Shown here piece after piece: positions 5,574 through 28,047 of a DNA stretch of 64,000 nt. The stretch spans positions 1-64,000 of IMG/VR virus record IMGVR_UViG_3300015189_000003. One strand, given 5' to 3'. The translations under genes were made by a program, and so were the position numbers. Each line of letters begins with the position of its first letter. The first letter of the stretch is position 1. The notes beneath the pieces were generated by a model. That model saw only the letters and a list, made by a program, of their open reading frames with translations, was not told where the DNA came from and searched no databases. This DNA comes from a virus.

Positions 5574-5699
5574 TACGATCGCCAGAATGTTAAAAAGTCA
5601 GTGTCGCCACGAACGTCGGCCCGGTCCCCGCTTTCCGGTTGTACAAAATGCCGTCGTGAAGTCTTTTTAGGATGCAGGTACTGACTACGCTTGCAAAGT

Positions 5700-5772
5700 A
5701 TCCACCGGCGGGAATCGAACCCGCAAACGCCGCTTTGGAGGCGGCTGCCTTCCCATTTTAGGCTACAGTGGA
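5700..5772 (-). tRNA. tRNA-Trp (anticodon CCA)
   Basis: The minus strand folds into a full cloverleaf. The 7-bp acceptor is UCCACUG/CGGUGGA (one G-U pair); the D-stem is GCC/GGC; the anticodon stem GCCGC/GCGGC closes the loop CUCCAAA, giving anticodon CCA; the T-stem is GCGGG/CCCGC with loop UUCGAUU. There are 72 paired-frame bases plus a U discriminator; the 3' CCA is not encoded. The U discriminator is unusual for bacterial tRNA-Trp, where G is normal. It lies between the portal leader and the next operon. Confidence 0.9.
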
Positions 5773-5844
5773 CAAAAAGCCCCTTACGGGGGCCAGTCGC
5801 CGCGGCAAAACGCAACGCGGAAACTACCCGGCATAATCCGGGCG

Positions 5845-22667: not shown

Positions 22668-23978
22668 CTATTCTTTCATTGCTTGCCGCATAAGTTCAAC
22701 AAAAGCGACCGCGCCGCAGACCGCCACGACGCTGTTTCCGCTGCACCGAAGCTGGTCGGCTCTGCCCTCGTCCAAAAGCAATGCGGCATCCCCATCAACC
22801 AGCACACGAAAACCGGGTTCAAGCGCCGGGTAGAGGTGCGGCGGGATTTCGCTCCAGTCGGCAGAGGGTCCGGGGGCGAAGAGTGGGAGAACACTCCCGT
22901 TTCCGTCGCATGGGATAGGCTCGCTCCCCCGCTGCGTGATTCCAGGTCGGTCCACTTGTGGTCCTGGCTGTTGGGTGTCGGCCAGGCGTCCGCTTGATTC
23001 GCCAGTTGAATTCCGTGGTCTACTTCGCGCGGCAGGCTCGCCCTTTCGTGGGCCGCGGGAGTCGCCCATTGAGCAATCTGTGCTTTTAGGTTTGCCGCCC
23101 CCTCGTGGCTTTCCGTTGTTGCGTCGGCTCCCCCGCAGTTCCGCGGAGTCTGCCACATTCCCGCCACCGCCCCCGTCAGTGAATCCGTCGCCCCCGGATG
23201 GTTCCCGCAGCTTTCCGAGTCTTCCGAGCGAGGGGAGGGCCAAGTCATCGTGTCCCGAAACCGCTGGTATCCCGGTGGAACTTCGTCCCATGACTTGCAC
23301 TCCTTCGGAAGAATTCCCATCGTCATTTCGATGACCTGTTCCAATCCGAAAGCCGTCCCGTGGTTCTGATGGGGCTCGCCTTCCAAAACGATTGCCCCGC
23401 GGGAATTCCGATTTTGTGCCGTGCAGACAGTGGGCCAGCACAAAGCATCTTTCCCGCCTATGACTCGCGCCAACGCTCTCCGCAGTGACAAAGAGCGGGC
23501 TTTCGACCGTGTAACCCAATCGGCATAGTTCTTCTCCGACAGGTCGAAACCATCCTCCTGAAACCCAGGGAGGGACGTTTTCGCAGAACACCACGGCGGG
23601 CTGACACTCGGCAATGATTCGCAGGAACTGGACGATTGGCCCGTCGCCGTCTTCCCCGTGGCTCCTTTCGTCTTCATTGCCTTTTTGCTTCCCGGCGACG
23701 CTGTAGGGCTGACACGGCAGGCCAGCGCAGAGGATGTCCACCAGTCCGCGAAACGGCTTCCCGTCGAAGCCTCCCAGATCGCCGCACCAAATAGGGGCAG
23801 GCTCCAAGCTCGATTCTTCCATCCGGGCCAAGAGCGTGGCCGCGGCGTAACTTTCCCACTCAGCGAGACACGCAATTCGTGTTCGCTGTCCGAAGTATTC
23901 GCAGCCGAGGCGGACGGCTTCTTCGAGCATGCCGACGCCGCTGCAAAGTCCAAGCGTATTGATGATGGGATTATCCAC
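22668..23978 (-). CDS. DNA cytosine-5 methyltransferase
   Basis: 436 residues from a GTG at 23978, placed 1 nt after the helicase stop with GAGGAG upstream. Motif I LGLCSGVGMLEEAV, motif IV AGLPCQPYSVAG with catalytic Cys, motif VI VFCENVPP, motif VIII SHRRERCFVLAH, and C-terminal motif X CSGNSVVAVCGAVAFVEL. A roughly 200-residue Gly/Ser/Arg-rich stretch between VIII and X holds target recognition. Different frame shadows of similar length exist but lack these motifs. Second of at least three intact C5 enzymes here. Confidence 0.88.
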   Translation of the reverse strand: MDNPIINTLGLCSGVGMLEEAVRLGCEYFGQRTRIACLAEWESYAAATLLARMEESSLEPAPIWCGDLGGFDGKPFRGLVDILCAGLPCQPYSVAGKQKGNEDERSHGEDGDGPIVQFLRIIAECQPAVVFCENVPPWVSGGWFRPVGEELCRLGYTVESPLFVTAESVGASHRRERCFVLAHCLHGTKSEFPRGNRFGRRAPSEPRDGFRIGTGHRNDDGNSSEGVQVMGRSSTGIPAVSGHDDLALPSLGRLGKLREPSGGDGFTDGGGGGNVADSAELRGSRRNNGKPRGGGKPKSTDCSMGDSRGPRKGEPAARSRPRNSTGESSGRLADTQQPGPQVDRPGITQRGSEPIPCDGNGSVLPLFAPGPSADWSEIPPHLYPALEPGFRVLVDGDAALLLDEGRADQLRCSGNSVVAVCGAVAFVELMRQAMKE

Positions 23979-23979
23979 A

Positions 23980-26511
23980 CTAAAAAGGCAACTCCTCTGT
24001 TTCAAACACATCGCCCCGCACCGCTTCCGCCTGCCAGTTTTCTTCCGGCGGAATCGGGTCGAGGACGTAATTCGTGATTCTGTAAAACTTGCCTTCGCGA
24101 ATGGTCGTTATCCTCGTCGGAGTCGCGACCGCCCCGCGTTTCCACCAGTCGATGCAGCTATCAATCCAACTACCAGTATCGTCAGAAACGGGAGCTGCGT
24201 CGCTTCGCTTCCGCCACCAGGCTTGAGCCTTTTGGCCGGCCCAGCCGTCATGGTCGAGGCAAACCCATTCGCTGATTTTTTCGAGAGCGAGATTGCCTTC
24301 GTAGCCCGGCACGCGGCAGATATAATCCACCCGCAGCGTGTCCGGCCCGATGCCTTTGGCCTTTTGGTGGCGAGCCATATTGACCTCTTCCACAAGCCAG
24401 TCTTGCGGCTTCGAGAGGATCTGCGCCAGCTTGTCAGCCTCTTCGCCGTGCTTGAGTTCCCGCGGCGGGAACTGAAAGCCGCAGAACGGACAGACGGCGG
24501 CCGAGAGCGGCACATCTTGCTCGCAGTTGACGCACTTTTTGGTCGGCGCGTCGGCGTCCGGATTTTTCTTTTTCGGCTTGCCGAAGTCGATCGCGTCGAG
24601 GGGTCCGTGGCGCAAAATGTTTTCGCCGAAGTCGAGAATCAGCGCGTTATCCTTGCCGGGAAACAGCCTGAAAGCTCTTCCGCAAATTTGGCTGTAGAGT
24701 CCAGGCGAACAAGTCGCCCGCAACACGGCGATGCAGTCGATACAGGGGGCGTCGAAGCCAGTCGTCAAGACGTCGACATTGGTCAGCCATCGCAGCCGCC
24801 GGTTCCGGAAGTCGCTCAGAGTATTGGCCCGCTCGATTGGCAGGGTGTCGCCAGTCACGGTCCCGCACTTCTCGCCGGTCAAGGTGGAAAGCTCTTGCGC
24901 GACGTGCTTGGCATGTTCCACCCCAGAGCAAAAGACCAGGACCGATTGACGGCCGGCAGACTTGGAGACGATTTCCGCACAGGCTGCCTTGACGACCGCC
25001 GGAACGTCGAAAAGTTGTTCCATCTCGGAATTAATGAATTCGCCCGCCCGAATATGCAGCTTCGAGGTATCTGCCGAGGCGTCGCCGACGTTGCTGATAA
25101 TCTGGCTCAGGTAGCCTTGCGAAATCAATTGCGGAATCGGAGCCGTATAGCAAATCTGCTGAAACAGCCCATCCGGCCGACAGAGCGCCCCTTCGCCCGT
25201 CCGGTACGGCGTAGCCGTCATGCCGACCATGCGGAGCTTGGGATTGATGCTTCGCAGGTCGTCGAGGAAAGCCCGGTACATCCCTTCGCCGGCAGTAGGG
25301 ACTAAATGACAATTGTGGACCAGGACACCCCCAGCGAAGTAAGAAGGGTGGCCACTGACTTGCAGGTCATGCACAGTTCGGCGGCTTGCTCGTTCCGGAT
25401 CCTGATTACCTTCCAGCCAAGTTCGGACAACAAAAGGTCTTTCTTGGCGTCCAGTGCTTTCCGGCCGTACATATCGTGTGAACGGCCGTCGCACTCTATC
25501 CCAATTTTCAGGCTGCGATTCCCGATGTCCAGCTTGTAGCAAGTTGGGTATCCGCCGCCCTTCACTTTGGGCTTTTTCGTCGGGATTGCGACTTCCGGTT
25601 CCCACCCATCCCCGAGGATCGCAAGCATGTTTGCGACCACTGGCGGCAATGGCCGACCGTTCCCACCTCGCACCTTCGGGAAATATCCCTTGGCCTTGTG
25701 GCCGTCGCTCAACTTTTTCCGCACCTCCGGCGTGCCGACCGGGTTGAAATGCAGCTTCGCGCACCGAATGCTGCAGTACCTCGTGCGAGCCCAGCGAGAT
25801 TTTGGATACAGGGCGTCCTTTCGCTTCCCGTCCGAGGCGCGAATCAGCGGATGCAATGGAGTTCCACAGCCAAGGCATGGCTTGTGAATCAGCAAGCGAT
25901 TCTCCAACTTCCAGGCAATTGGCCCGGATCCAGCCGCGGTCGGTGAAGAATCGATGGTTTGGAGTGCAGGACAAAACATGGCCATTGCTAACCTCAACTT
26001 TCAGAATAGAAGTTGCTTGTTTATTGAACGTGGACAGGACGCGACCGACTCCGCTGGCGTTTAAGACCAGATCGCCGACGCGAATCTCTTCAATTCGACG
26101 ATTGCCGCCAGGCGTGGCGACGAGCGTTTCGCCAGTGAAGCATTCATCTATAATGACTAGATTTCTAACGCCGAATTCCGCAGCCTTTTTGTGTACGGAC
26201 TGAATGCCGCCACAAATGACCGGCAGGTCGGTCCTTCGCTGTTTGAGTCCCGCCGAGTAGATTCCGCACAAAATATCCGGCGGCAGAAACGAGGATATTT
26301 TTTCGGCATTTTGTTTTAGCAACTCAGCTCTGTGAGCCAACACCAGCACTCTTCCGCCCCACCGTTGGACGGCTTCCCGGCACAACTCAGCGCACATGAC
26401 CGACTTCCCAGAGCCGGTCGGAGTGTCAATCACCGGATTGCCAGAACTGTTCAGCAAGAAATTCCAGACGGAATTGCAGGCGTCTTGCTGGTATGGTCGA
26501 AGAGAATACAT
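23980..26511 (-). CDS. SF2 DEAH-box helicase interrupted by an intein
   Basis: 843 residues in total, 566 after splicing. Walker A DTPTGSGKS (residues 29-37), motif Ia VLVLAHRAEL, Walker B IIDE|CH split by the intein after residue 123, motif III GMTATPYRTG, motif IV/V VLVFCSGV and VLTTGFDAPCI, motif VI QICGRAFRLFPGK. A CVNCE...CPFC zinc ribbon lies in the C-terminal part. The spliced motif is DECH. The tail ends ETEELPF, like an SSB acidic tip. Restriction-type or replication helicase (UvsW/HsdR-like by layout). Activity should need splicing because the insertion divides the ATPase site. Confidence 0.9.
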   Translation of the reverse strand: MYSLRPYQQDACNSVWNFLLNSSGNPVIDTPTGSGKSVMCAELCREAVQRWGGRVLVLAHRAELLKQNAEKISSFLPPDILCGIYSAGLKQRRTDLPVICGGIQSVHKKAAEFGVRNLVIIDECFTGETLVATPGGNRRIEEIRVGDLVLNASGVGRVLSTFNKQATSILKVEVSNGHVLSCTPNHRFFTDRGWIRANCLEVGESLADSQAMPWLWNSIASADSRLGREAKGRPVSKISLGSHEVLQHSVREAAFQPGRHAGGAEKVERRPQGQGIFPEGARWERSAIAASGRKHACDPRGWVGTGSRNPDEKAQSEGRRIPNLLQAGHRESQPENWDRVRRPFTRYVRPESTGRQERPFVVRTWLEGNQDPERASRRTVHDLQVSGHPSYFAGGVLVHNCHLVPTAGEGMYRAFLDDLRSINPKLRMVGMTATPYRTGEGALCRPDGLFQQICYTAPIPQLISQGYLSQIISNVGDASADTSKLHIRAGEFINSEMEQLFDVPAVVKAACAEIVSKSAGRQSVLVFCSGVEHAKHVAQELSTLTGEKCGTVTGDTLPIERANTLSDFRNRRLRWLTNVDVLTTGFDAPCIDCIAVLRATCSPGLYSQICGRAFRLFPGKDNALILDFGENILRHGPLDAIDFGKPKKKNPDADAPTKKCVNCEQDVPLSAAVCPFCGFQFPPRELKHGEEADKLAQILSKPQDWLVEEVNMARHQKAKGIGPDTLRVDYICRVPGYEGNLALEKISEWVCLDHDGWAGQKAQAWWRKRSDAAPVSDDTGSWIDSCIDWWKRGAVATPTRITTIREGKFYRITNYVLDPIPPEENWQAEAVRGDVFETEELPF
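25302..25997 (-). CDS. Vsr-like (EDxHD/DUF559-type) endonuclease nested out of frame in the intein
   Basis: 231 residues from the first Met; the domain proper begins about residue 30. A zinc finger appears as CLGCG (about 42-46) and CSIRC (about 75-79); then KPKVKGGG, YKLDIGNRSLKIGIECDGRSHD with the Glu, Asp and His of a PD-(D/E)xK/Vsr-like site, and LGWKVIRIRN, the standard end of that fold. The helicase/intein frame stays open over the whole length, so both proteins are encoded by the same bases. Stop falls 8 nt beyond the intein end. Start uncertain: an internal TTG after TTGGAG would trim the shadow-like first 30 residues. Likely the homing nuclease that spreads the intein. Confidence 0.78.
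   Translation of the reverse strand: MRLAMAMFCPALQTIDSSPTAAGSGPIAWKLENRLLIHKPCLGCGTPLHPLIRASDGKRKDALYPKSRWARTRYCSIRCAKLHFNPVGTPEVRKKLSDGHKAKGYFPKVRGGNGRPLPPVVANMLAILGDGWEPEVAIPTKKPKVKGGGYPTCYKLDIGNRSLKIGIECDGRSHDMYGRKALDAKKDLLLSELGWKVIRIRNEQAAELCMTCKSVATLLTSLGVSWSTIVI
25312..26142 (-). mobile_element. Intein (277 aa) in the helicase DECH motif
   Basis: Residues 124-400 of the helicase. It starts with Cys (CFTGETLVATPGG, block A), has block B SCTPNHRFFT with Thr-x-x-His-like TPNH, block F VHDLQVSGHPSYFAGGVLVHN and ends His-Asn followed by Cys401 of the host protein. These are all residues needed for protein splicing. The middle in this frame has no LAGLIDADG motif and low-complexity, Arg/Gly-rich sequence; the same DNA encodes an endonuclease in another frame. 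Insertion exactly in a conserved ATPase motif is typical of inteins. Confidence 0.92.
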
Positions 26512-26639: not shown

Positions 26640-27209
26640 TTACCCCCAGGGGGTTGCCGGAGCGTAAGCCGGAGCCGCAGGACCGGGAGCCACAGGAGCC
26701 GACGGCGGGAAAGCCGCGGGAGCCTGCTGGTAGACCGGAGGAGCCGCGGGCGGCGGACCGCCAGGACCGGACTGGCGCGGCTTGAACGAGGAAATCTCGT
26801 TCTTGGCCGCATATTCGCCCTTGGCGGGAATCGCCTTGACGGAGATTCGCACCGGCTTGTTATGCAGCTCTTCGGACGCCTTCGGAGTCAGGACGCCGAC
26901 CGCCCGGCACAGGGCCGAGAGATTGCCTTCCGAAATCCGGATTGCCGTCTTCGTGTTTTCGGGAATCGCCGTCCCCGCCGGCAAGCGGCAGCCGAGCCAC
27001 AGATTGAAGTTGTGGAACAGCTTCCGATTCTGATACTTGCCGTTCAGGATCTGAAATTCCGTCTTGAGCATGTCGCCCGTACTATCCTTCGTCGCCTTCT
27101 TCTCGGACTTGACCATGATTGCCTCATAGTCGCCGGCGGGAATCAGGTCGAAGCCGTCATTAGGCTCGACCTTGTTCGCGTCGAAGCCACTTGCACCAAA
27201 ATCTGCCAT
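26640..27209 (-). CDS. DUF669-family phage protein
   Basis: 189 residues from ATG 27209. The N-terminal ~130 residues read as the DUF669 phage family (PAGDYEAIMVKSEKK, LKTEFQILNGKYQNRKLFHNFNLW), commonly beside recombination genes; an ssDNA-binding role is suspected for the family. The C-terminal ~50 residues are Pro/Ala/Gly/Gln-rich and disordered, ending in PWG, a layout like SSB proteins. Lies 4 nt after the Sak4-like ATPase, supporting a replication/recombination unit. Confidence 0.75.
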   Translation of the reverse strand: MADFGASGFDANKVEPNDGFDLIPAGDYEAIMVKSEKKATKDSTGDMLKTEFQILNGKYQNRKLFHNFNLWLGCRLPAGTAIPENTKTAIRISEGNLSALCRAVGVLTPKASEELHNKPVRISVKAIPAKGEYAAKNEISSFKPRQSGPGGPPPAAPPVYQQAPAAFPPSAPVAPGPAAPAYAPATPWG

Positions 27210-27213
27210 AAAA

Positions 27214-28047
27214 CTAACCCTCTTTCTTCGAAGAACCATCGTTGACGACGCCAGAGATATTCCCGTCGGCACTGGCAGGGCCAGCGACAGCAGGAGCCGG
27301 AGGCAGGGGCGGCATCAAGCCCGCCTGCGGCAGATATTGAGCGTAAGCGGCCCATTCCATGGGCAATTCGTCAGGCAGGCGAAGGCGGTTTTTCGCTTCG
27401 GCAACTGCGCTGGCATTCGTGCGGATGAAGCGGTCCTTGCCGCCGACCGCGATTTGGCGGACCTTGTTGAAGCCGAGGTCTTCGGATCGGGTAAAGACCC
27501 GGTAAGACGAGAAGAAGACCTCGTCGCACCATTCTTGAATCATGCCGTTGACGGCTTTATGCAGGTCCGGCTCGTAACGGTCGTAGCTGTCAGTTTCGGG
27601 ACTGGCAAACTTGGCGATGCGGGCATGAGCCAGGAGGATAATCCCCATGCCGCGATTGTCCCGCAGGGCGTCGAAGCCTTTCAGCAGGTAATCCCAGCAC
27701 TTGACCGCGGCTTCGTAGCCCTTGCCGTAGGCGATTTTCTCGATGGACGCGACACCGGCGTCTTGCGAGACTTTCGCGAAGATGAGAGCCTGCAGCCAGT
27801 CGAGGGTATCGACCGCCACCCACTTATAATCGTGCTTCTCTTGCAGGAGCCAGGAGATAGCCGTCAATACGTTGCCGAAGTCGTTGCACCGAGGCGTCTT
27901 GTCGCAGTCGATGTCGTTTAGGCCGTCTTCAATGTCGATGAAGATGCAGCCAGGGGCCTCGCTGGCCCAGGTCGATTTCCCGCAGCCGTGGATCCCGTAA
28001 TTCATAATCCGCCGCGGCTTGAGCTTCCGTCCGGTTAAGACTTGCAC
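27214..28047 (-). CDS. RecA-fold ATPase of the phage Sak4/AAA_24 type
   Basis: 277 residues starting at GTG 28047 after GAGGAGG. Walker A YGIHGCGKST (about residues 17-26), IFIDIEDG, a WVAVDTLDWL Walker B strand, GMGIILLAHAR typical of RecA-core proteins, and a late Pro/Ala-rich tail. Such proteins, next to an SSB-like partner, perform single-strand annealing or assist replication. Length fits the family. Its partner is probably the DUF669 protein directly below. Confidence 0.78.
   Translation of the reverse strand: MQVLTGRKLKPRRIMNYGIHGCGKSTWASEAPGCIFIDIEDGLNDIDCDKTPRCNDFGNVLTAISWLLQEKHDYKWVAVDTLDWLQALIFAKVSQDAGVASIEKIAYGKGYEAAVKCWDYLLKGFDALRDNRGMGIILLAHARIAKFASPETDSYDRYEPDLHKAVNGMIQEWCDEVFFSSYRVFTRSEDLGFNKVRQIAVGGKDRFIRTNASAVAEAKNRLRLPDELPMEWAAYAQYLPQAGLMPPLPPAPAVAGPASADGNISGVVNDGSSKKEG

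Follow-up and report, generated by a model that had tools for sequence, protein, structure and literature searches.

A putative mobile intein in a phage helicase gene with a homing-type endonuclease encoded in an overlapping +1 frame

Canonical bifunctional inteins consist of a splicing domain and an in-frame LAGLIDADG or HNH domain. In the fractured genes reportedly described by Dassa et al. 2009 (NAR 37:2560), split inteins flank an EDxHD/Vsr-like endonuclease. The EDxHD endonuclease I-Bth0305I (PDB 3r3p) is encoded in a mobile intron. Out-of-frame HNH endonucleases have been reported within phage methylase genes of mycobacteriophages, namely the ShiLan domain and the Pacc40 insertion (PMC11855218, 2025). 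This paper was the only direct precedent retrieved in a literature search and, given its content, hidden endonucleases as a general idea are not entirely new. The locus presented here combines an uninterrupted intein with an overlapping nuclease frame.

Helicase, intein, and nuclease of the window

The window, i.e., the whole stretch of 64,000 nucleotides analysed, represented positions 1 to 64,000 of the virus record IMGVR_UViG_3300015189_000003 (66,403 bases). An SF2 (RadD/ResIII-like) helicase gene with an intein was located at 23980..26511 on the minus strand and consisted of 843 codons in a frame that was open throughout. Its translation matched PF14890, TIGR01445 (intein_Nterm), ResIII, Helicase_C, and RadD-type helicases, while residues 124–400 matched Intein_splicing and TIGR01445, the latter with a score above its cut-off. 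The class-1-like intein of 277 aa (C124 to N400; 25312..26142, minus) lies in the Walker B motif DE|CH, between an N-extein (26511-26143, minus) and a C-extein (25311-23980, minus), and its flanks (DE|C...HN|CH) correspond to helicase motif II. Block A began with C124 (intein C1, invariant across 66 inteins), the TxxH of block B was present as CTPNH (H63 invariant across the 66), and the terminal HN followed by Cys was present as VHN|CH (N277 invariant, H276 nearly so). T63 and H66 of the N-block alignment were invariant in 28 sequences. The residue after the insert was a conserved Cys, with Ser in some relatives and Ala in one empty allele. The claim of the sequence-only reading that the helicase frame carries a complete intein from C124 to N400 could be confirmed by the open ORF, the domain matches, and the splicing blocks.

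AlphaFold prediction of the intein, using 66 aligned sequences, gave pLDDT values of 90–98 at both ends and about 50 for approximately residues 100–240. The N-terminal splicing part with blocks A and B (25861..26142, minus; pLDDT ~90–98) is predicted to adopt a HINT fold. It is followed by an intein-frame read-through of the nuclease gene of ~145 aa (25423..25860, minus), which is predicted to be disordered (pLDDT ~50), and by the C-terminal splicing part (a strand with blocks F and G; 25312..25422, minus), which is double-coded with the nuclease C-terminus. The best Foldseek match of the intein was gp41-1 (E 3e-8, TM 0.83 by target). The two ends of the intein frame are thus predicted to form a HINT splicing fold, and splicing is predicted as well. 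The helicase belonged to a module that also encodes a C5 cytosine methylase, a DUF669 protein, and an AAA_24 ATPase, all on the minus strand (window 22668-24011, 26640-27272, and 27214-28047), and a tRNA-Trp gene with anticodon CCA was present at window 5698-5773 (minus).

The nuclease gene could be read on the same strand in the +1 frame relative to the helicase (25302..25895, minus; 197 aa from TTG 25895). It contained a zinc-finger region CxxC...CxxxC (25761..25877, minus) and an EDxHD/Vsr-like catalytic core (25392..25496, minus). The ORF matched DUF559 with an E value of 2.5e-6, and searches of PHROGs and NCBIfam gave no informative match for the nuclease. The four zinc-finger Cys did not vary among the window and seven sequences from annotated phages, and the core residues E134, D136, H140, K152, W161, and N168 were invariant in 64 sequences, with D149 nearly so. 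Conserved E, D, H, and D residues of the EDxHD type are thus present in the nuclease sequence. The AlphaFold model of the nuclease (64 aligned sequences) had a mean pLDDT of 87. Weak Foldseek matches included I-Bth0305I (3r3p), NGO0050 (3hrl), and Vsr (1vsr) with E values of 0.08–0.9, all structural matches having E above 0.001; a sequence-profile match to NGO0050 (3hrl) reached 7e-8. The protein is predicted to fold as a zinc finger joined to a PD-(D/E)XK (EDxHD/Vsr-like) domain.

The first possible start of the nuclease was TTG 25997. At TTG 25895, a candidate Shine-Dalgarno (SD) sequence GGAG (25902..25905, minus) was found 6 nt upstream, in a position typical of the family. An alternative start lay at 25983..25995 (minus), where GAGG (25995-25992) was separated by the 6 nt TTAGCA from ATG (25985-25983), giving 227 aa. 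TTG 25895 or ATG 25985 is better supported by sequence context than TTG 25997, and the true start is uncertain. The earlier description of a 231-codon second-frame protein thus stood as to its zinc finger and EDxHD/Vsr-like core, while its start at TTG 25997 was less supported than the inner ones. The stop codon (25304-25302) fell 8–10 nt into the C-extein. Since the nuclease frame crosses the C-terminal splicing block and stops in the C-extein, the catalytic H399, N400, and C+1 are encoded by codons that are also read as part of the nuclease frame; in the window, the entire last splicing block is double-coded, in line with the overlap noticed earlier.

Frame relation and translation in relatives

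A tblastn search of the nuclease against annotated phages returned 40 records (Vibrio 37, Corynebacterium 2, and Pseudomonas 1). In seven annotated phage loci, one continuous CDS, mostly named helicase, spanned the nuclease match, and the nuclease frame was +1 to the annotated CDS in 7/7. A separate nuclease CDS was not annotated in any of these seven loci, so that intein surveys would class such loci as inteins without a recognisable endonuclease. When the window nuclease or helicase was used as a single-sequence query, nothing was retrieved from the viral contigs collection, for which an alignment query was needed; the plasmid collection gave no match. With the alignment query, the best 80 of 305 viral relatives and 20 in genome contigs were scanned, and one open intein frame with the nuclease in +1 was observed in 92/92 relatives with both intein blocks detected (71 non-redundant). 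An independent scan, for which the N-terminal splicing block served as query (best 80 of 267 relatives), revealed the nuclease in +1 of an uninterrupted intein frame in 76/76 complete loci, the remaining four ending at contig ends. Loci cut by contig ends were consistent with the +1 arrangement over the part present, and L075, L080, and L093 agreed with it by eye. The insertion site was DE| of Walker B in all examined loci except L093, where it differed slightly. An in-frame nuclease, a split intein, or a decayed nuclease was not found among the examined relatives.

The double-coded intein/nuclease arrangement is conserved in more than 100 distinct phage and metagenome sequences. The sequence-only reading had recognised a continuous intein with an overlapping-frame nuclease in a single locus and had pointed to metagenomes as the place to look for more. 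Its view is upheld by a frame relation that was the same throughout both scans; the arrangement proved widespread and frame-invariant, and the counter-case that it had named, a broken nuclease frame beside an intact intein, was not found among the examined family members.

The host proteins of the inteins were SF2 helicases, SNF2-type helicases, DnaX-like clamp loaders, and a terminase-like protein, suggesting, at the sequence level, that the nuclease family tracks Walker B-coding DNA across ATPase superfamilies. An intein of the same type was seen in the Walker B of the DnaX-like (L097, L098, L100) and terminase-like (L022) proteins. Additional matches to intein N or C models occurred within the same ORF in L038, L039, L060, and L080, suggesting the presence of multiple inteins in some helicases.

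The element is most probably a mobile intein whose homing endonuclease is encoded by a gene of its own, overlapping in the +1 frame, and not by an in-frame domain, as judged from the conserved frames and predicted folds. Ribosomes reading the helicase would make a single precursor, in which the unstructured stretch of ~145 residues between the splicing regions would be no more than the nuclease gene translated out of frame. The splicing regions would then excise and ligate DE to CH, by which helicase motif II would be restored. Other ribosomes would start inside the intein gene, at an SD sequence and start codon located towards the end of the N-terminal splicing part, and produce the free nuclease. 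The nuclease would cut intein-less alleles at the Walker B-coding DNA, its predicted target, and repair would then copy intein and nuclease together.

Internal initiation was assessed from the nuclease-frame starts near the end of the N-terminal splicing region. An SD match of at least 5 nt was present in 19 loci compared to 6.9 expected (maximum in 2000 simulations, 16), and one of at least 4 nt in 38 loci compared to 23 expected; approximately half of the loci had no match of at least 4 nt at the best start. A start codon was present upstream of the conserved nuclease core in 71/71 loci, and clear SD-start pairs could be observed at the junction in Vibrio, Pseudomonas, and several MAG members (GAGGT...ATG, AGGAGG...ATG). 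The alternative of a +1 ribosomal frameshift from the intein N-terminal region, which would yield an N-extein-IntN-nuclease fusion and no free nuclease, appears unlikely in the light of this enrichment of SD-preceded starts, the clear pairs, and the start codon found in every locus, and a conserved slippery motif was not seen by eye. It draws some support from L010, L011, L016, and L061, which have no ATG, GTG, or TTG close before the zinc finger (none within 60 nt in L010, L011, and L016, close relatives of the window), and from a nuclease frame that is often open further upstream. Separate internal initiation is, from these signals, the simplest model of translation. In loci with weak SD/start signals, other starts or frameshifting are conceivable, and the mode may vary among loci, with an upstream start, a rare start codon, or a +1 frameshift.

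The overlap was further evaluated in the 71 non-redundant loci (13,960 codons), in which neither the intein frame nor the nuclease frame contained a stop, compared to 951 stops in the third frame. Synonymous recoding of the nucleases at host-gene codon usage gave 643 expected stops in the intein frame, where 0 were seen. For the window alone, recoding gave 6.95 expected stops in the helicase frame, and 0/1000 replicates were open. Because the recoded replicates were never open and the expected stops were absent from the relatives, the overlap in the window is not due to chance. In 47 further loci of the N-block scan, the counts were 0, 0, and 544 for the intein, nuclease, and third frames, respectively. 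The intein-equivalent frame contained 27 stops in the free-standing nuclease of L029, 26 in that of L059, and 2–11 in nine distant relatives that are also free-standing. The nucleases of L029 (1534-2151) and L059 (3881-4405) lie directly upstream of intein-less helicases with an uninterrupted motif II (EEIH and DEIH, respectively); they are possibly free-standing ancestors or trans-homing forms.

A fractured gene, in which a split intein with an intervening nuclease gene merely kept the intein frame open by luck, is very improbable on these counts, with no stop between the halves in 118 non-redundant loci and with the helicase read as one CDS in the deposited annotation. The nuclease superfamily and the intein fold class are nevertheless those of fractured genes, and the closest fold, gp41-1, is a split intein of the kind that Dassa 2009 reportedly described.

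Substitution rates at helicase codon positions 1/2/3 were compared in 12 pairs of related loci, with some loci present in more than one pair. In the exteins the rates were approximately 0.18/0.12/0.43, and the intein N region was substituted mainly at helicase codon position 3. Over the nuclease core the rates were 0.349/0.158/0.135, helicase position 1 being nuclease position 3, while all positions were slow in the C-terminal overlap (0.083/0.044/0.156; last 30 nuclease codons, over the intein C-terminal strand). Downstream of the nuclease stop, helicase position 3 was fast again. This pattern indicates selection on the nuclease protein in the middle and on both proteins at the C-terminal overlap, with the middle of the intein frame kept open without visible selection on its residues. 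A near-invariant LQ of the intein frame was considered as intein conservation and rejected, being the out-of-frame shadow of the conserved YK of the nuclease. The comparison of both frames, which had been proposed as a check on the overlap, thus supported it, as the fast position within the nuclease changed from helicase position 3 to position 3 of the nuclease codons. Both frames are, on the evidence of their sequences across the family, maintained coding sequences in a fixed frame relation.

Long-term double coding of this kind also makes it extremely improbable that a canonical in-frame-endonuclease intein was shifted by two compensating indels or sequencing errors. The nuclease does lie between blocks B and F, the usual place of in-frame endonucleases, but the +1 relation holds in every examined relative, these relatives came from metagenomes as well as from independent phage isolates, and none of them had the nuclease in frame. 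The sequencing-error version is refuted, and a single ancient event is a possible origin of the +1 arrangement. The sequence-only reading had also allowed that the helicase frame might be the accidental one. If so, the element could be removed as an RNA intron; although the nuclease superfamily also occurs in introns (I-Bth0305I; PMC12350094), this has a negligible chance, since the open frames, the substitution pattern, and the splicing motifs with predicted HINT ends rule out an accidental frame, the Cys after the insert is conserved as described above, and Rfam gave no intron or ribozyme-core match in the helicase region.

Alleles and mobility at the insertion site

Vibrio phages with ~85–87% identical helicases carried full, mini-intein, and empty alleles at one site. 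The full allele was found in 1.194.O, a mini-intein of ~150 aa without nuclease in K389, K459, and PS65A.1 as well as in the more distant 13VV501A, and the empty allele DECHH in 1.024.O and 234P10. The existence of mini-inteins implies that the nuclease DNA is dispensable for an intein at this site; their sequence is distinct, and they need not have arisen by deletion. In 142E35-1 (L194), an empty DEAHH stood opposite the intein-bearing DE|CHH (L002; 104E43.1), and the +1 Cys, which splicing requires, may have been introduced together with the intein through co-conversion. The helicase of Vibrio phage PS65A.1 (L190; 301-3432) had an extra insertion of ~350 aa besides the mini-intein at DE|C, which is possibly a second intein.

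Comparison of 1.088.O with 1.194.O revealed differences at 45/1068 positions in the intein and 378/1635 in the exteins (4% vs 23%), with the divergence shifting sharply at the intein boundaries. The intein N region, which is not double-coded, was equally similar; therefore, the constraint of double coding does not explain the similarity of the inteins. This divergence pattern shows a recent transfer of the whole overlapping unit between phages, matching the expectation for homing. The distances of nucleases, inteins, and exteins were correlated to a similar degree in Mantel tests (~0.47–0.52), which were dropped as evidence, since they did not separate co-transfer from vertical descent.

Meaning and comparison with known systems

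A large, frame-locked intein lineage, with the overlapping nuclease as a stable form residing in the Walker B of unrelated ATPases (SF2 and SNF2 helicases, clamp loader, terminase), could be a missing link between free-standing homing endonucleases beside helicases and fractured-gene split inteins, a tentative reading that we lean slightly against. If it were true, one stop in the intein frame would convert the overlapping form into the split form. Split inteins, major tools of biotechnology, could plausibly have arisen from the overlapping form, and the predicted disordered stretch of ~145 residues may mark a natural split site. The family also offers a resource of more than 100 natural double-coded sequences with clear selection signatures.

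A preprint by Gosselin et al. 2025 (bioRxiv 10.1101/2025.01.02.630785) is said to treat actinobacteriophage inteins with a 'non-canonical architecture', and Gorbalenya 1998 is said to concern 'Non-canonical inteins'. PMC11855218 cites both for overlapping reading frames in actinobacteriophages. The architecture presented here is conserved, widespread, and, as far as the literature could be checked, undescribed; both works may already cover an overlapping-frame intein nuclease.

The window element resembles fractured genes in its endonuclease superfamily, its occurrence in phage replication genes, and an intein fold closest to gp41-1. Unlike in fractured genes, where the nuclease gene lies between intein halves, the intein is continuous, as one ORF in the window and the non-redundant relatives, and the nuclease overlaps it in +1. 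The catalytic fold is shared with I-Bth0305I by weak matches; that nuclease, carried by a mobile intron, does not overlap a coding frame, whereas the window nuclease does, and the helicase region had no Rfam ribozyme match that would place it among group I/II introns. With ShiLan and Pacc40, the element shares an insertion that is open in the host frame, a homing-type endonuclease in another frame, and phage hosts. ShiLan and Pacc40 have no splicing domains, are neither intein nor intron, encode HNH enzymes, and have no detectable ribosome binding site (PMC11855218), whereas the window element has splicing domains with their blocks and an EDxHD nuclease that is DUF559/Vsr-like rather than HNH. 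With canonical bifunctional inteins it shares blocks A, B, F, and G, a nuclease between B and F, and homing; the difference is that the endonuclease lies in +1 and not in frame (92/92 and 76/76 loci) and, being in another frame, is not part of the spliced-out protein. As two independent proteins would come from the same bases, the nuclease does not have to fold within the intein and can be produced by itself. Besides in-frame domains and split inteins, this would represent a third route to join splicing and homing, with two proteins encoded by the same bases.
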